Assembly (NCBI RefSeq): GCF_029978005.1
Contig: NZ_JARKOZ010000180.1
Span: 1 to 37,485, forward strand
DNA from: Solidesulfovibrio sp.
GTDB taxonomy: Bacteria; Desulfobacterota; Desulfovibrionia; Desulfovibrionales; Desulfovibrionaceae
Direction of reading: 5' to 3'
Length of the DNA stretch: 37,485 bases
Below are positions 16,438 to 23,219 of the stretch, piece after piece. How positions within the stretch are numbered: the stretch's first letter is position 1; each line of letters starts with the position of its first letter. A program made the translations under genes and the position numbers. The notes under the pieces were generated by a model. That model was given only the letters and a program-made list of their open reading frames with translations. It was not told where the DNA came from and did not search any database.

Positions 16438-16470
16438 CCGCCGAACGTCGTGCGGCGGTCCTCCTTTTGA
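16438..16470 (+). terminator. Possible terminator of the ROK-like gene
   Basis: CCGCCG (16438-16443) pairs with CGGCGG (16453-16458) across a 9-nt loop, followed by TCCTCCTTTT. The T-run overlaps the next promoter's -35 box. The stem is short. Confidence 0.4.
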
Positions 16471-16496
16471 CACATCCCGGGCTTTGTGCTTATCTG
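16467..16496 (+). promoter_or_regulatory. Promoter of the TPR-like membrane protein gene
   Basis: A perfect -35 TTGACA (16467-16472) is followed after 18 bp by TATCTG (16491-16496), a weak -10. Transcription would begin about 40 nt before the ATG at 16545, whose GGAGG is at 16531-16535. It may also serve the iorAB operon downstream. Confidence 0.45.
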
Positions 16497-16544: not shown

Positions 16545-17201
16545 ATGACCGACACCAATTCGTCGCAGTCCCCCCGGACCGCTCCGGCCGACATCGCTTC
16601 AATCCTGCAGATGCCCCTGCGTCACTGGAAGCAGACCCTGGCCGGCGTGCTGGTCGTGGTGGCCGTGGCCGGCGGCTACGCCCTGTACGGCGTGTACCAG
16701 AAAAGCCAGGTGACCAAGGCCGAGAACGAACTGGGCACGATCCTTCTGACCAAGGCCGGGGCCGAACGTCTGGCCGCCCTGGAGACCCTGGCCAAGACCG
16801 CTCCCGGGGCCGCCCGCGACGGCGTCTGGCTGGCCGCCGCCCAGACCGCCCTGGAGCTGAACGATTTCGCCAAGGCCGCCGCCGCCTGGGACGCCGTCTC
16901 CAAGACCGCCCCGGCCGGCATGAAGACCGTGGCCGGCATCGGCTACGCCGCCGCCCTGTCCAAGGCCGGCCAGGACGCCAAGGCCGTGGAGGTGCTCGAG
17001 GCGCTGTCCGTTTCCGCGCCCAAGGCCTTCTCCATGACCGTGGACCGCCAACTGGCCGTGGCCGCCGAGGCCGCCGGGCAGTGGCAAAAGGCCCTGGCCG
17101 CCTTCGAGCGGATGAAGGCCGCCGGCAACGTGCAAAACGCCGCGTACATCGACGCCCGTATCGTCGACATCAAGAGCAAGGCCGCCAAGGGCAACGGCTG
17201 A
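16545..17201 (+). CDS. Membrane-anchored TPR-like protein (YfgM-type)
   Basis: 218 aa. A polar N-terminus is followed by one membrane helix (about 33-52, TLAGVLVVVAVAGGYALYGV). An Ala-rich helical region then continues to the end (about 60-210) with helix pairs like TPR repeats (LAAAQTALELNDFAKAAAAW, LAVAAEAAGQWQKALAAFER). The layout resembles YfgM/ancillary SecYEG subunits and other periplasm-facing TPR proteins, but sequence identity cannot be judged here. GGAGG lies 9 nt before the ATG, and a TTGACA promoter is upstream. A large hairpin at 17275-17318 separates it from iorA. Confidence 0.7.
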   Translation: MTDTNSSQSPRTAPADIASILQMPLRHWKQTLAGVLVVVAVAGGYALYGVYQKSQVTKAENELGTILLTKAGAERLAALETLAKTAPGAARDGVWLAAAQTALELNDFAKAAAAWDAVSKTAPAGMKTVAGIGYAAALSKAGQDAKAVEVLEALSVSAPKAFSMTVDRQLAVAAEAAGQWQKALAAFERMKAAGNVQNAAYIDARIVDIKSKAAKGNG

Positions 17202-17274: not shown

Positions 17275-17349
17275 CCGCGCCGGCGGCGGGTCGGCTGACG
17301 CCCCCGCCGCCGGCGCGGTCGCCCGGACGCCATGGGGCGTCACTATTTT
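17275..17349 (+). terminator. Tandem hairpins in the iorA leader (terminator or attenuator)
   Basis: First hairpin: a perfect 16-bp stem (17275-17290 with 17303-17318, 12-nt loop). Second hairpin: GACGCC (17326-17331), ATGG loop, GGCGTC (17336-17341), followed by ACTATTTTT, the layout of an intrinsic terminator. The T-run ends 5 bp before the iorA ribosome site (GGAGG, 17354-17358). It ends the upstream transcript, attenuates iorAB, or both. Confidence 0.5.
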
Positions 17350-17364: not shown

Positions 17365-19206
17365 GTGGGCAAGGAGCTATTGACCGCAACGGCCGGGGAA
17401 ACCCTGCTGCTGCTCGGCAACGAGGCCATCGTCAGGGGGGCGTTGGAAGGCGGCGTCCGCTTCGTGACCTGCTATCCCGGGACGCCGTCCTCGGAAGTGC
17501 CGGACACCTTTTTCCGGCTTTCCCAGGGCGCGCCCTACTACTTCGAATATTCCGTCAACGAGAAGGTCGCCCTGGAAGTGGCCGGCGGCGCGACCCTGGC
17601 CGGACTTGCCTGCCTCGTGACCATGAAGCACGTCGGCGTCAACGTGGCCGCCGACCCGCTCATGACCCTGGCCTACGTCTCGGCCCCGGGCGGGCTGGTG
17701 CTCCTTTCCGCCGACGATCCCGGCTGCCACTCGTCGCAAAACGAGCAGGACAACCGCATCTACGCGCGCCTGGGCGGCCTGCCCTGCTTCGAGCCGGCCA
17801 CGGCCCAGGAATGCAAGGACATGGCCCGCGACGCATTGCTCCTTTCCCGGGAGCTCGAAACGCCGGTCATGCTGCGCACCACCACCCGCGTCAACCATGT
17901 ACGCGGCCCGGTGACCGCCGCAGAGCTGCCGAGCGACGTCGCGGAAAAGCCCTTCGTGAAAAATCCCGCCAAGTACGTGCCCCTGCCGGCCTCGGCCCGG
18001 CCCATGCACCAGCGCCTGCTCGGCGTGCTCGAAAAGGCCCGGGCCGTGGCCGAGACCTCGCCCCATAACGTCGAGCGCGGCCAGGGCGAGATCGGCTTCG
18101 TCAGCTCGGGCGTGGCCCGCAACTACCTGAGCGACGTCCTGGCCGAGGACGGCCTGGAAGGGACCGTGCGGGTGCTCGAACTCGGCATGACCTACCCCCT
18201 GCCCGAGGAGCGCATCGCCGCCTTTCTGGCCAAATGCCGCACCGTGGTCGTGGTCGAGGAGCTCGAGCCCGTGCTCGAAAACGACCTGCGCGCCCTGGCC
18301 CAAAAGCGCGGCATCGAGGTCGCCATCGTCGGCAAGGGCGAACATCTGCCGCGAAACGGCGAATATGCCACGGCCAACGTCCGGGCGGCGGTCGACGCGG
18401 TCCTCGGCCGGCCCGCGCCCGCGGCCGACACCCTGGCCGTGCCCGGCGACCTGCCCCGCCGGCCGCCCAACCTCTGCGCCGGCTGCCCCCACCGGGCCGC
18501 CTACTACGCCGTGCGCGAGGTCTTCGGCGACGAGGCCGTCTACTCCTCGGACATCGGCTGCTACACCCTGGGCTTTCTGCCGCCCTTCCGGGCCGCCGAC
18601 TTCCTCCTGTGCATGGGCTCGTCCATCTCCACGGGCGCGGGCTTCGCCCGGGCCTCGGGCAAGCCGGTGGTGGCGTTCATCGGCGACTCGACCTTCTTTC
18701 ATTCCGGCATCACCGGGCTCATCGACGCCGTGGCCTACGACCACGACATCCTGGTGGTGATCCTTGACAACCGCACCACGGCCATGACCGGCCACCAGCC
18801 CAACCCCGGGGTGGATACCACCATCTTCGGCGAAAATCCCAACCCGGTGGACCTCATGGCCCTGATCCGGGCCTGCGGCATCGAGCCGGTCAAGGTCAAC
18901 CCCCTCAACCACAAGGCCACCGTGGCGGCGCTTCAGGCCTTCGCCGGCCAGCGCGGCCCCCGCGTCCTCGTGGCCGAGTACCCCTGCCCCATCCACGCCC
19001 GGCGCGTGGGCCAGGCCAAGAAGACCCTGCCCGCCCGGGTGGCCGGCGACCCCGAATCCTGCCTGGCCGTGCGGGACAACCTGGCCTGCCCGGCCTTCGC
19101 CATGGAGGCCGGCGTCTTCACCATCAACGCCGAACAGTGCGACGGCTGCATGTACTGCGTGCAGCTTTCCGCCGCCATCAAGCCCGGCAAGAAGGAGGCC
19201 CGATGA
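17365..19206 (+). CDS. iorA: Indolepyruvate:ferredoxin oxidoreductase, alpha subunit
   Basis: 613 aa, ThDP-dependent, oxidatively decarboxylates aryl pyruvates (from Trp, Phe, Tyr) to aryl-acetyl-CoA with ferredoxin. The N-terminal pyrimidine-binding part has GNEAIVRGALEGGV, CYPGTPSSEVPDTF and YSVNEKVALEVAGG. The ThDP-Mg motif is GDS (440-442) ... DN with N469. The C-terminal ferredoxin domain is altered: the first motif reads C566-xx-V569-xx-N572 before C575-P, the second C592-xx-C595-xx-C598 with S602 replacing the fourth Cys. Only one [4Fe-4S] ligand set (C592, C595, C598, C575) remains of the usual two. The start is the GTG at 17365, with GGAGG 6 nt upstream. The stop overlaps iorB by 4 bp. 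Confidence 0.93.
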   Translation: MGKELLTATAGETLLLLGNEAIVRGALEGGVRFVTCYPGTPSSEVPDTFFRLSQGAPYYFEYSVNEKVALEVAGGATLAGLACLVTMKHVGVNVAADPLMTLAYVSAPGGLVLLSADDPGCHSSQNEQDNRIYARLGGLPCFEPATAQECKDMARDALLLSRELETPVMLRTTTRVNHVRGPVTAAELPSDVAEKPFVKNPAKYVPLPASARPMHQRLLGVLEKARAVAETSPHNVERGQGEIGFVSSGVARNYLSDVLAEDGLEGTVRVLELGMTYPLPEERIAAFLAKCRTVVVVEELEPVLENDLRALAQKRGIEVAIVGKGEHLPRNGEYATANVRAAVDAVLGRPAPAADTLAVPGDLPRRPPNLCAGCPHRAAYYAVREVFGDEAVYSSDIGCYTLGFLPPFRAADFLLCMGSSISTGAGFARASGKPVVAFIGDSTFFHSGITGLIDAVAYDHDILVVILDNRTTAMTGHQPNPGVDTTIFGENPNPVDLMALIRACGIEPVKVNPLNHKATVAALQAFAGQRGPRVLVAEYPCPIHARRVGQAKKTLPARVAGDPESCLAVRDNLACPAFAMEAGVFTINAEQCDGCMYCVQLSAAIKPGKKEAR

Positions 19207-19805
19207 ACCGCGCCCGCATCTTCCTCACCGGCGTCGGCGGCCAGGGAACCCTGACCGCCACCACGCTGCTCGCCCGCACCGCCCTGGACGCGGGCCTGCC
19301 CGTCACCTCGGGCGAGATCCACGGCATGGCCCAGCGCGGCGGCGTGGTCGAATCGACGCTGCTCGTCGGCGGCTACAAAAGCGCCCGCATCTCGGCCGGC
19401 GAGGCCGACGTGCTGCTCGGCTTCGAACTGCTGGAAACCCTTCGCGCCCTGCCGATGCTGCGGCGCGGGGGATTTATCGTCAGCAACGCCGAGGCCGTCC
19501 AGCCCGTGGGCGTGTGCCTGGGCCGGGAATGCTACCCGCCGCTCGAGGCCGTTTTGGACACGGCCCGGGGCTTCGCCGCCGGCATCGTCATGGTGCCGGC
19601 CATCAGCCTGGCCGAACAGGCCGGCACGGCCAAGGCCGCCAACATCGTGCTCCTCGGCGCGGCCGCGGCCAGCGGTGCGCTGCCCTTCGACGTGGCGGCG
19701 CTCGTGCGCTCGGTGGAGAAATACCTCAAGCCCAAGATCGTGCCGCTCAACCTCAAGGCCCTGGAGCTGGGCGCCCAGGCGGCCGCAACAGGACAGGCGG
19801 CGTGA
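19203..19805 (+). CDS. iorB: Indolepyruvate:ferredoxin oxidoreductase, beta subunit
   Basis: 200 aa gamma-type (CoA/2-oxoacid-binding) subunit that pairs with IorA. Motifs typical of this subunit are FLTGVGGQGTLTATTLLART at the N-terminus, SGEIHGMAQRGGVVESTLL, and KAANIVLLGAAAASGALPF. Length matches the family (about 190-210 aa). Its ATG overlaps the iorA stop (ATGA at 19203-19206), and its own stop overlaps the regulator start (GTGA at 19802-19805). The three genes are therefore translated as a coupled set. Confidence 0.93.
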   Translation: MNRARIFLTGVGGQGTLTATTLLARTALDAGLPVTSGEIHGMAQRGGVVESTLLVGGYKSARISAGEADVLLGFELLETLRALPMLRRGGFIVSNAEAVQPVGVCLGRECYPPLEAVLDTARGFAAGIVMVPAISLAEQAGTAKAANIVLLGAAAASGALPFDVAALVRSVEKYLKPKIVPLNLKALELGAQAAATGQAA

Positions 19806-21409
19806 TCGATCCGCTTACGACCTTCGACAGCGCGGGCCCGGCCTTTTACGGGGCGCTTTCGCGCATCGCAGCGACCACCGGGCCGGGCCGCGCCGTGCGC
19901 CGCGGCCTGGAGGAGTCCCTGGCCATCCTGGTCGAGACCCTGGGCTACCGTCGGGCCAGCCTGGAGATCCATGACCTGCCCCAGGCCGGGGCGCGCATCC
20001 TGCTCTCTCACGGCAAGGAGCAGGGCCTGGACCACCTCTACGGGCCCGCCCCCCTGTCCACGGGCCAAGTCATCGGCTCCAGGCGCTCCCTGGTGCTCCA
20101 GGACGTCAAGGACCACCCCGACTTCCTCGGCCGGCCGCCCCAGGAACTGGCCACCCTGTCCTATATCTGCGTGCCCGTGACCATCCCCGAGCCCGACGGC
20201 CAGGTGGAGGGCTTCGCGCCCGTGGCCGGATCGGGCGTGGTCGGGGCGCTCAGCGTCGATCTGCCCAAGGCCCCCATGGTCTTTCTGGAGGCCCACCGGG
20301 AATTCCTGGTCGTGGCCGGGGCCATGATCGGCAACGCGGCCCTGCGCCTGCGGGACGAACTGGCCCGTTCGCGCCGCCGTCCCGCGCCCCAACTCGCCGC
20401 CGAGACGCCGGTTTCGCCCGAAGCCGAGGCTTTGGCCGAATCCCTGGCCCCGCCGCCGGTGGCCGTGTCCAAGAGCATGCGCCTGCTCCTGCGCCAGATC
20501 GCCCAGGCGGCCGACGCCGGCGCGCCGGTGCTCCTGCGCGGCGAGGAAGGCACGGGCAAGGAAGCCCTGGCCCGCTTTCTCCACGCCCAGGGCAATCGCC
20601 GCCACCGCCCTTTCCTGCGCCTGGGCTGCGGCGAGATGCCGGAAGAGGCTGCCCTGGAGGCGCTTTGCGGCGTGCAGAAGGGCGAACGCGCCAAGGCCAC
20701 CCGCTCCCGCCGGGGCATCTTCGAGCTGGCCCAGGGCGGCGTGGTCTTCCTGGACGACATCGACGAGCTGCCCCTGGCCGCCCAGGAACAGGTGCTGCGC
20801 GTCATCCAGGAAGGAGCCATGCAGCGGGCCGGCGGCGACACGCCGGTTTCCGTGGACGCCCGGGTCGTGGCCGCCAGCCGCGCCTCCCTGGAGGACGCCC
20901 TGGCCAGGGGCGACTTCCTGGAAGACCTCTACTACGCCCTGGGCGTTTTTTCGCTCTTCGTGCCGCCCCTTCGCGACCGCACCGGCGACATCCTGCCCCT
21001 GGCCGAGCGCTTTCTCGACGACTTCTCGAAACGTACCGGCAAGACCGTGCGCCGCATCTCCACGCCGGCCATCGACCTGCTCAATCAGTACCATTGGCCG
21101 GGAAACGTCAGAGAACTCTTGAGCTGCATGGAGCGGGCGGCCCTGGTGTGCGACGAGGCCGTGGTGCGCACCTACCACCTGCCGCCGACCCTGCAGACCG
21201 GCGAATCCTCGGGCACGGAACCCTCGCTTTCCTTTGGCGACGCCGTGGCCACCTTCGAGCAGGAACTGTTGGTCGAGGCCCTGAAAAAGGCCCGAGGCAA
21301 CATGTACCAGGCGGCGCGCAACCTGCGTGAGAGCTACCGGGTGGTCAACTACAAGGTCAAGAAGTACGGCATCGATCCCAAGCGCTTCACGCCCGGCCGC
21401 CGCGGCTGA
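19802..21409 (+). CDS. NtrC-type regulator with a degenerate AAA+ domain
   Basis: 535 aa: a GAF-like sensor (about 30-185), a linker, a sigma-54-activator-type AAA+ domain (about 225-460) and a Fis-type helix-turn-helix (about 480-530, ALKKARGNMYQAARNLRESY). Walker A is intact (GEEGTGKE, 247-254), and so is the sensor II region WPGNVREL (432-439). But the GAFTGA loop that contacts sigma-54 is GERAKA (294-299), Walker B is LDD (D318, D319 for Glu), sensor I AATN reads AASR (357-360), and both arginine fingers are gone (L373 and A379 in FLEDLYYAL). It should bind DNA and perhaps ATP but not remodel sigma-54 holoenzyme. It resembles TyrR in lacking GAFTGA, which fits control of aromatic-acid genes. 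The GTG start overlaps iorB by 4 bp. Confidence 0.88.
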   Translation: MIDPLTTFDSAGPAFYGALSRIAATTGPGRAVRRGLEESLAILVETLGYRRASLEIHDLPQAGARILLSHGKEQGLDHLYGPAPLSTGQVIGSRRSLVLQDVKDHPDFLGRPPQELATLSYICVPVTIPEPDGQVEGFAPVAGSGVVGALSVDLPKAPMVFLEAHREFLVVAGAMIGNAALRLRDELARSRRRPAPQLAAETPVSPEAEALAESLAPPPVAVSKSMRLLLRQIAQAADAGAPVLLRGEEGTGKEALARFLHAQGNRRHRPFLRLGCGEMPEEAALEALCGVQKGERAKATRSRRGIFELAQGGVVFLDDIDELPLAAQEQVLRVIQEGAMQRAGGDTPVSVDARVVAASRASLEDALARGDFLEDLYYALGVFSLFVPPLRDRTGDILPLAERFLDDFSKRTGKTVRRISTPAIDLLNQYHWPGNVRELLSCMERAALVCDEAVVRTYHLPPTLQTGESSGTEPSLSFGDAVATFEQELLVEALKKARGNMYQAARNLRESYRVVNYKVKKYGIDPKRFTPGRRG

Positions 21410-21485: not shown

Positions 21486-23219
21486 ATGGCCAGCCTCGCC
21501 AGCCACGAGTACTATCGCGACGACATGAGGAAGATGCCGCCGCTGCGCTCCATCGCCCAGACGCTCTGCCTGGACAGGCGGGTGCGCAAGGTCACGGCCG
21601 CCGAGGCTTACGCCCTGGCCAAAAGCCAGTACGACGTCATGGACACCGACCTGCCGATCTACCCGCCGGCGGCGGCCCGCCTGGGCCTGCCCGAGGGCGC
21701 GACGGTCATCAACAACTGCCACGGCCGCATCGTCGGCCGCACGGCCAAGGCCCGGCGCTTCTACAACCGCATGGAGGCCGTGGAGCGCCGCAAGGTCGAG
21801 TCCGACCTGCGCGAGGCCGTCTACGAGATGCAGCGCCACCCCCTGATCAAGGCCGAGGCGATCCTCGGACTCGACCCGGACCTCATGATCAAGGCGACCA
21901 TCGTGGCCACCGAGGACGACGCGGTCAACGTCTTCAACTGGCTGGCCAACTTCACGCCCTACGAGGAACTGGCCGCAGTCTACGCCAAGAGCCCCCGCCT
22001 GCCCATTCCCGACATCCTCGTCGTCGGCTTCAACCATTGGAAGACGACGGACCCCTACTACCACAACGAAGGCGGCTCCCAGCTGGCCCTGGTGGACGAG
22101 GAGGCCAACGTCATCTTCAACCTGGGCATGCGCTATTTCGGCGAACGCAAGAAGGGCACCCTCACCCTGGCCTGGACCTCGGGCATGCGCCTTGGCATGG
22201 CCGCCTGCCACGGCGGCATCAAGGAGATCGACTTCTCCGGCTGCCAGGACCCGTCCGCGCGCGAAAAGGGCAAGCGCTCCATCGCCTTTTTCGGCCTGTC
22301 CGGCACGGGCAAGTCGTCGCACACCAACTCCCACGACAACGGCGGCACCCTGCCGGCCGGCTTTTCCAAGGTGGTGCTCCACGACGACGCCTTCCAGATC
22401 GACTGCGAGGGCAAGGTCTGCCGGGTGTGGGAGCCAACGCTCTTCGACAAGACCGACTCCCGCCCCCTGGGACATCCGGACTGGCGCTACATGATTTCCA
22501 CCATGAACCTGGCCCTGACCGAGGACGGCGGCAAGGTGCTGCCGCTGGGGCAGGACGTGCGCAACCCCAACGGCCGGGCGCTCATCGACCGCGACCTGCT
22601 CGGGGCCTACGTCAACCGCTGCGCCTTCCCGGACATCATGGTCTGGCTCATGAAGGACACCTGCCTGCCGCCGGTGGTGCGCTTCGCGGACAAGGCCCTC
22701 GGCGTGGCCATGGGCGCGTCGCTCATGACCCGGCGCAACCTGGCCGAGAACGTGAGCGAGGAAGAGCTCAAAAAACTCGTGTTCGAACCCTTCGCCAACC
22801 CCTTCCGGGTCTACGAGCTGTGGAAGGACGTGGAGGCGTTTTTGCACGTGTTCAAGGCCGGCGCGGTGGGCTACGCCTTCAACTCCGTGGGCTTCTGGAA
22901 GAGTTCCGACCGCGACCTGCGCAAGATTCCCCTGGCCACTTCTCTCACCCTGCAAACGGCCCTGCTCCTGGACAAGCTCGAGTGGGAGGACTGGGACATG
23001 CTGCCCGGCGCGCAGCTGCCCAAGCGCGAGAGCGTGGACAGGCTCCTTCCCGGCTACACCGACGCCTACGGCCCGGCCAAGGTGGAAAACCCCGAGCGCT
23101 ACGCCGAGACCCTCAAGGACCGCTTCCACCAGCGCCGCGTGTACCTGCAGAATTCCGACCTGCACAACCGGCCGGAACTCCTCATGACCCTGGTCAACGC
23201 GCTCATGGCCAGAGCGTAG
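21486..23219 (+). CDS. PckA-type phosphoenolpyruvate carboxykinase (ATP), divergent
   Basis: 577 aa. The fold is that of ATP-dependent PEP carboxykinase (oxaloacetate + ATP to PEP + CO2 + ADP). The P-loop is GLSGTGKSS (270-278). The kinase-2 aspartates are D300/D301, in LHDDAF where IGDDEH is usual. The metal/substrate lysines are in GERKKG (K222, K223), the metal His is probably H242, and an N-terminal GRTAKARRF stands where GRSPKDKF is usual. The C-terminal half differs clearly from E. coli PckA: no SGFTAK or INTGW motif, instead YAFNSVGFWKSSDRDL. It is therefore a PckA-superfamily enzyme with conserved catalytic residues but an altered nucleotide or regulatory part. GGAGG is just before the ATG, 76 bp after the regulator gene. 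Confidence 0.75.
   Translation: MASLASHEYYRDDMRKMPPLRSIAQTLCLDRRVRKVTAAEAYALAKSQYDVMDTDLPIYPPAAARLGLPEGATVINNCHGRIVGRTAKARRFYNRMEAVERRKVESDLREAVYEMQRHPLIKAEAILGLDPDLMIKATIVATEDDAVNVFNWLANFTPYEELAAVYAKSPRLPIPDILVVGFNHWKTTDPYYHNEGGSQLALVDEEANVIFNLGMRYFGERKKGTLTLAWTSGMRLGMAACHGGIKEIDFSGCQDPSAREKGKRSIAFFGLSGTGKSSHTNSHDNGGTLPAGFSKVVLHDDAFQIDCEGKVCRVWEPTLFDKTDSRPLGHPDWRYMISTMNLALTEDGGKVLPLGQDVRNPNGRALIDRDLLGAYVNRCAFPDIMVWLMKDTCLPPVVRFADKALGVAMGASLMTRRNLAENVSEEELKKLVFEPFANPFRVYELWKDVEAFLHVFKAGAVGYAFNSVGFWKSSDRDLRKIPLATSLTLQTALLLDKLEWEDWDMLPGAQLPKRESVDRLLPGYTDAYGPAKVENPERYAETLKDRFHQRRVYLQNSDLHNRPELLMTLVNALMARA

Follow-up and report, generated by a model that had tools for sequence, protein, structure and literature searches.

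The window analysed here comprises 37,485 nucleotides of a Solidesulfovibrio sp. genome (contig NZ_JARKOZ010000180.1) and carries an operon with the gene order TPR gene, iorA, iorB, regulator, which begins one gene upstream of iorA. The regulator, a single open frame with zero internal stops on translation, belongs as the Solidesulfovibrio orthologue to the DVU1949 family, a set of NifA-like GAF/AAA+/Fis proteins whose intact members resemble ATP-hydrolysing sigma-54 activators, the enhancer-binding proteins (EBPs). Its assignment to the DVU1949 orthologue group is based on the best full-length relative per genome and on conserved synteny, the Desulfovibrio vulgaris sequence itself lying outside the alignment. 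The window protein has lost several of the signature residues of such activators, retains Walker A and the Fis-type helix-turn-helix (HTH), and is most likely a DNA-binding regulator that works without sigma-54 and binds ATP but does not hydrolyse it.

Pfam recognises Sigma54_activat, AAA lid and HTH_8 in the regulator. The top-scoring NCBIfam model is NifA (TIGR01817, 284.7 bits), aligned over residues 19-460 including the GAF region; the score is far below the equivalog cut-off of 528.85 bits, and the window protein differs from NifA in being without GAFTGA. The TyrR model (NF008085) reaches 203.0 bits against a cut-off of 576 and covers residues 220-528 only. An earlier note on this stretch, made from the letters alone, had proposed a TyrR-like solution reached through a GAF sensor; with NifA as the best named family, and with GAFTGA loss already known from several EBPs, this is not supported. 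The GAF-like domain itself is partly upheld: its GAF_2 match is weak (21.9 bits, cut-off 28.6), but the NifA alignment covers it and the fold prediction shows the N-terminal alpha/beta part as a domain of its own. The AlphaFold2 model has a mean predicted local distance difference test (pLDDT) of 83.8 and a predicted template modelling score (pTM) of 0.50, and because of the latter the placement of the domains is uncertain. Its AAA+ part resembles the structures of NtrC1, FleQ, LuxO and NifA (target TM-scores 0.85-0.95, chains of ~245-260 residues), and the AAA+ fold is thus predicted to survive the loss of the motor. The nearest named match is from S. alcoholivorans (93% identical). Within the same genome there are 51 other matches at E<=0.001, the best of which is 37% identical, aligned over residues 40-534, and has GSFTGA.

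Relatives were collected by searching 99 genomes, the window's own included, which gave matches at E<=1e-90 at 76 places in 75 genomes; one of these is the window, 60 regions were fetched and 15 left aside. From a second collection of 80 named loci the 63 nearest (L035-L097) were used and 17 more distant ones left aside. After dropping two fragments (L127 and L041), the masked L096 and repeated proteins, residues were counted in 105 distinct protein rows, 68 intact (including four distant outgroup rows) and 37 degenerate, the latter divided into clade A (18 rows) and clade B (19 rows). Intact rows were defined by GAFTGA or GSFTGA, Walker B Asp-Glu and both arginine fingers, so their 68/68 at these columns holds by definition; the rule made no use of Walker A, the switch Asn or sensor II. 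Motif positions in the window protein were cross-checked against solved EBPs (Table 1).

Table 1 Features of the operon and its regulator in the window, with occurrence among intact, clade A and clade B rows
Feature	Position	Strand	Basis or occurrence
Predicted sigma-70-like operon promoter	16467..16496	+	-35 TTGACA 16467-16472, 18-base spacer, -10-like TATCTG 16491-16496
TPR gene, first in operon	16545..17201	+	Pfam TPR matches, TPR-like repeats; N-terminal hydrophobic segment by eye
iorA, indolepyruvate ferredoxin oxidoreductase alpha	17365..19206	+	TIGR03336, 678.3 bits (cut-off 650.9)
iorB, beta subunit	19203..19805	+	POR domain; top NCBIfam models are IorB, under their cut-offs
Degenerate NifA/NtrC-type regulator	19802..21409	+	535 residues, GTG start, overlaps iorB stop
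N-terminal GAF-like sensor domain, residues ~11-185	19832..20356	+	Weak GAF_2, NifA model alignment, predicted fold
Walker A GEEGTGKE (247-254), kept	20540..20563	+	Lys253 in 17/18 clade A, 18/19 clade B
Switch-Asn position, Gly275	20624..20626	+	Asn in 68/68 intact, 0/18 clade A, 2/19 clade B
L1 loop, GERAKA (294-299) replacing GAFTGA	20681..20698	+	Translation, row counts
Walker B FLDD (316-319), Asp318 kept, Glu replaced by Asp319	20747..20758	+	Glu in 0/18 clade A, 0/19 clade B
First arginine-finger position, Leu373	20918..20920	+	Arg in 0/18 clade A, 1/19 clade B
Second arginine-finger position, Ala379	20936..20938	+	Arg in 0/18 clade A, 17/19 clade B
Sensor II Arg437, kept	21110..21112	+	Arg in 68/68 intact, 16/18 clade A, 2/19 clade B
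Fis-type HTH, residues 482-522	21245..21367	+	HTH_8; low omega over residues 478-530

Translation confirms the changes in the L1 loop (four of six residues), at the Walker B Glu and at both finger positions that the earlier note had described, and adds the loss of the switch Asn, which we take to be the equivalent of PspF N64. The statement that every signature save Walker A had gone was too strong, since Lys253, Walker B Asp318 and sensor II Arg437 are all kept in 13/13 Solidesulfovibrio rows, and Walker A Lys is present in 35/37 degenerate rows overall. For sensor I, which reads AASR at 357-360, the change at position 360 stands (His in 55/68 and Asn in 13/68 intact rows, neither in any of the 37 degenerate rows), but AATN is not the usual form in this family because intact relatives mostly have His there. 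None of the 18 clade A rows, the 13 from Solidesulfovibrio included, has GAFTGA, the Walker B Glu, the switch Asn or either arginine finger; the degenerate state recurs in 13/13 rows of the genus and is therefore no assembly error. The two clades lost different residues: clade B mostly keeps the second finger and not sensor II, and keeps the Phe of GAFTGA in 17/19 rows, whereas clade A keeps sensor II and neither finger. With 68 of the 105 rows intact, the degenerate state is lineage-specific within the family.

In the regulator tree, built without the motif columns, the degenerate rows fall into two starred groups, with several long branches flagged. Clade A consists of the 13 Solidesulfovibrio rows and five others (early clade A rows, one of them with a match to a named Fundidesulfovibrio); clade B comprises Mailhella, Bilophila and others. 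The regulator's own tree does not reject a single origin of the degenerate rows (p 0.468). The RpoB tree of 28 genomes (G016 excluded; two congeners stand in for the window's genome, which gave no RpoB match) places the two degenerate groups apart and rejects a single clade (p 6.8e-7), making two losses likely provided that the gene was inherited vertically. A normal NifA-like activator has therefore apparently been disarmed twice, in clade A and clade B separately.

Selection on the domains was compared by identity and by omega from a codon model. Mean AAA+/GAF identities in five intact groups are 0.93/0.81, 0.94/0.82, 0.86/0.70, 0.93/0.83 and 0.88/0.65, as against 0.839/0.849 in Solidesulfovibrio and 0.784/0.808 in the Mailhella group; in the five early clade A rows, which are divergent, the AAA+ domain remains better conserved than GAF (0.615/0.472). 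For AAA, GAF and HTH (residues 478-530), omega is 0.091, 0.073 and 0.024 in Solidesulfovibrio, 0.069, 0.048 and 0.008 in the Mailhella group, and 0.074, 0.084 and 0.028 in the early clade A rows, with divergence high in several groups. AAA omega is lower than GAF omega in 5/5 intact groups (AAA+/GAF ratios 0.61-0.92), whereas the ratio is ~1.25 for Solidesulfovibrio and 1.44 for the Mailhella group. AAA+ relaxation is clear in these two groups only, and there the extra constraint on the domain is gone while purifying selection persists. The HTH is the most conserved part in both degenerate clades (identity 0.948 within Solidesulfovibrio). Taking as conserved those positions shared by >=95% of the 64 intact rows that do not belong to the outgroup, Solidesulfovibrio keeps on average 69% of 135 in the AAA+ domain vs 91% of 28 in the HTH region. 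The window's genus thus has omegas of 0.024-0.091 by domain, which argues against a pseudogene, and the earlier description of a long, clean frame under selection with a conserved HTH holds.

Sigma-54 remains available to these bacteria: rpoN was found in 17/18 genomes searched, all but a clade B genome that is 89% complete, and its presence in 9/9 clade A genomes means that sigma-54 loss is not the cause of degeneration there. A consensus scan gave no match of >=10 (of 12) in any of 79 operon leaders, all 18 from clade A among them, and the best score was 9 in one intact leader. In 13/13 Solidesulfovibrio loci the TPR gene is instead preceded by TTTTGACAC-N9-TTTRTGCTTA, which occurs at one place per genome in 10/10 genomes (with a single control match in one genome) and by consensus scoring reads as a probable sigma-70 promoter. 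The operon leader therefore lies 5' of 16545 and not upstream of 17365, the region that the earlier note had proposed to examine; no conserved promoter was seen 5' of iorA by eye in an alignment of 13 leaders, the gap between the TPR gene and iorA not being searched for palindromes. That gap, otherwise poorly conserved, contains an inverted repeat, GACGCC-N4-GGCGTC at 17326-17341, just 5' of the iorA ribosome-binding site, which may form an mRNA hairpin; a similar GGACG...CGTC form is seen again in further Solidesulfovibrio loci.

In many intact genomes the operon -35 box sits within a palindrome, TTNACA-N4-TGTNAA, a motif devised in this analysis, partly settled on the same leaders, and scored to a maximum of 10. 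Intact leaders (n=50) have a mean best score of 8.30, with 19 at 9 or above and 22 at p<0.05 vs shuffles; for clade B (n=11) the mean is 8.55, with 7 at 9 or above and 7 at p<0.05; for Solidesulfovibrio (n=13) and early clade A (n=5) it is 5.92 and 6.20, with no leader in these categories. The p value of 2e-9 for intact vs clade A leaders is too small since the rows are related. Its position over the -35 box suggests repression of the operon, and its retention at the clade B operon in 7/11 leaders counts for DNA binding independent of sigma-54.

The three genes upstream are shared by intact and degenerate forms. Of 60 loci (the window and 59 fetched loci, two of them from a single genome), 47 have the TPR gene, iorA and iorB all upstream of the regulator on its strand. 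A further 6 have the TPR gene but lack iorAB, 3 have iorAB with no TPR gene detected, 1 shows iorB only, next to a contig edge, and 3 have no such neighbour. In total the TPR gene is found in 53/60 and iorAB in 50/60 loci, and the two are about equally constant. All three neighbours are present in 17/17 clade A loci; the 39 intact loci divide into 28 with all three, 4 with the TPR gene only, 3 with iorAB only, 1 cut and 3 with none, and the 4 clade B loci into 2 with all three and 2 with the TPR gene only. By synteny, the TPR gene would be the counterpart of DVU1952.

The family has a described member. In Kazakov et al. 2015, DVU1949 of Desulfovibrio vulgaris Hildenborough is listed with GAFTGA, and its predicted regulon comprises nine operons, classed as nitrogen metabolism and transport; its orthologues are co-transcribed with DVU1952 in seven genomes and with iorAB in four, and the Methods report no conserved sigma-54 promoter near the DVU1949 operon (PMC4641369). 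D. magneticus is included in that study, the accessible part of which holds no comment on the degenerate orthologue there (PMC4641369). Like the window regulator, DVU1949 is a single-component EBP in an operon with DVU1952, orthology being taken from synteny; it differs in its intact GAFTGA and predicted nitrogen regulon. D. vulgaris IorA and IorB are mentioned in PMC5083090. No literature on a disarmed form of the DVU1949 family was found in a search that covered subscription journals sparsely.

Several regulators offer precedents. NtrC of Caulobacter and Rhodobacter capsulatus, a nitrogen regulator, has lost GAFTGA and acts at sigma-70 promoters; in Caulobacter the protein depends on the Lys of Walker A and the Asp of Walker B. 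VpsR of Vibrio cholerae, also reported to be without GAFTGA, is described as regulating sigma-70 promoters (PMC10274813). TyrR, DhaR and HupR are EBP relatives without sigma-54 contact, and a Solidesulfovibrio protein may be among the ~110 EBPs with deviating GAFTGA reported in the same paper (PMC3162934). Both NtrCs resemble the window regulator as NtrC-type proteins without GAFTGA, but they have receiver domains and L1 deletions where its L1 is substituted; it has also lost the Walker B Glu, switch Asn and arginine fingers, positions not compared in the two NtrCs. VpsR shares the EBP fold (structure 7v2b is match 50 in our fold comparison) and differs in its ligand, cyclic di-GMP according to the PDB title of 7v2b. 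The N-terminal domain of VpsR and the sensor domains of TyrR, DhaR and HupR differ from that of the window regulator. With GAFTGA lost and the HTH retained, the window regulator by analogy most likely works like the GAFTGA-less EBPs that act with sigma-70, and cannot be classed as a sigma-54-dependent EBP.

In clade A and, apparently separately, in the Mailhella/Bilophila group, the regulator has been stripped of the loop that contacts sigma-54, of the catalytic Glu and the switch Asn, and of arginine-finger function; roles for these elements are described in PMC7175178. We propose that the GAF-like domain would sense a metabolite, the AAA+ domain would serve as a nucleotide-binding oligomerisation scaffold without ATP hydrolysis, and the HTH would bind operators, blocking or helping sigma-70 polymerase. 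Judged by its residues, remodelling of the sigma-54 holoenzyme is very unlikely, and the earlier suggestion of a sigma-54-independent regulator is the best reading.

Several results weigh against this proposal. Walker B Asp persists and some ATPase activity may remain, and Walker A alone is no proof of nucleotide binding. The early clade A rows (n=5) have an AAA/GAF omega ratio of 0.88, inside the intact range. The symmetrical leader sites that the earlier note had proposed to look for exist in 19/50 intact and 7/11 clade B leaders, but a palindrome score of >=9 is reached in 0/18 clade A operon leaders. Upstream of glnA, the palindrome has p<0.05 in 13/25 intact, p<=0.05 in 3/4 early clade A and p<0.05 in 0/7 Solidesulfovibrio leaders, where only the contrast counts as the p values are uncorrected and the motif was fixed after viewing these leaders. 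With the palindrome absent from both the clade A operon and Solidesulfovibrio glnA, no binding site is established for the window protein. Finally, the asterisk for an operon without a sigma-54 promoter stands in the DVU1949 row only after the last operon (PMC4641369), a placement that may imply a sigma-54 promoter at DVU1952-1949; none was found in the relatives here.

A bolder account, tentative and on balance doubtful, is that this operon regulator, inherited vertically, changed on two occasions from a sigma-54 motor into a catalysis-free, nucleotide-gated DNA-binding switch, clade B keeping the ancestral operator and clade A moving to other sites. The ancestor would have been dual-mode, binding the palindrome over the -35 of its own sigma-70 promoter and activating sigma-54 promoters elsewhere, so that motor loss would have left a working repressor. 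A candidate for the second mode is found in the intact genome G034, with a perfect palindrome 112 bases 5' of a sigma-54-like site that precedes an ammonium transporter gene; this arrangement is expected for an activator and is the sole such case among 25 transporter loci.

We consider it unlikely that the window regulator instead acts in mixed rings with another intact EBP, or titrates one, as a negative or accessory subunit. Its AAA+ fold, predicted intact and matching solved EBP AAA+ domains, would allow this, and the GSFTGA protein among the 51 other in-genome matches could be a partner; at just 37% identity, however, that best match is distant, and the lowest omega in the degenerate groups lies in the HTH, which fits direct DNA binding. 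Rather improbable, too, is the reading favoured by the earlier note, in which a TyrR-like regulator senses a ligand and is dedicated to iorAB and the oxidation of aromatic 2-oxoacids. Adjacency of iorA and iorB in 17/17 clade A loci speaks for it, but iorAB equally adjoins the regulator in 31/39 intact loci, a finding that the earlier note itself had named as refuting its proposal, DVU1949 with its GAFTGA belongs to the same family, the TPR gene is as constant a neighbour and occurs without iorAB in 6/60 loci, the iorA leader shows no conserved promoter by eye, and the intact orthologue is predicted to serve nitrogen metabolism (PMC4641369). Decay to a mostly functionless gene would explain why much of the former AAA+ constraint is gone, but is very improbable given the low omegas, the HTH identity and the lack of any internal stop among 14 genus members (one a fragment). 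That the protein still activates sigma-54 promoters through a strongly altered L1 loop, for which DVUA0100 of D. vulgaris is a precedent (GVATGV, three L1 changes, predicted active; PMC4641369), is barely credible: L1 retains just two of its six residues, and the Walker B Glu, switch Asn and Arg fingers have all gone.

With a sigma-54-independent regulator as the preferred reading, this gene should not be annotated as a sigma-54 activator. Intact and disarmed versions of one orthologue share the same operon across an order in which sigma-54 is still present, a series useful for asking how a sigma-54 activator turns into an ordinary regulator and what role an AAA+ scaffold has with Walker A but without catalysis.

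Reconstruction of a regulon from the palindrome was attempted and failed: exact genome-wide counts are barely different from those of a backwards-pattern control (30 vs 24 in 23 intact genomes, 4 vs 5 in nine Solidesulfovibrio, 9 vs 5 in four early clade A and 12 vs 7 in three clade B genomes). Allowing <=3 mismatches, the palindrome occurs at 8 places in 5/6 genomes. Among the leaders of 25 amt genes there are isolated matches, including Solidesulfovibrio G004 (p=0.003) and G005 (p=0.040), and in leaders of type III glutamine-synthetase-like genes (p=0.047 in G004, p=0.040 in G005); several gene starts are doubtful, and the matches count mildly against the view that no sites are left in Solidesulfovibrio.

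A phosphoenolpyruvate carboxykinase-like gene (21486-23219, below model cut-off) lies 3' of the regulator in Solidesulfovibrio loci and in L130 and L040, and was not detected beside the remaining loci compared for neighbours. The clade B genomes G016, G038, G051 and G054 have zero matches above the GlnA cut-off: G016 (89% complete) has no GlnA match at all, and the other three have only distant ones in frames of 726-764 residues. G054 carries two copies of the regulator (L170 and L171), a degenerate one near the TPR gene and an intact one elsewhere, which clusters with L168 outside clade B. In another intact genome, a perfect TTGACA-N4-TGTCAA palindrome (L175, G050:C18:7588-7606) stands upstream of a gene that, from its N-terminus, is presumably guaB.

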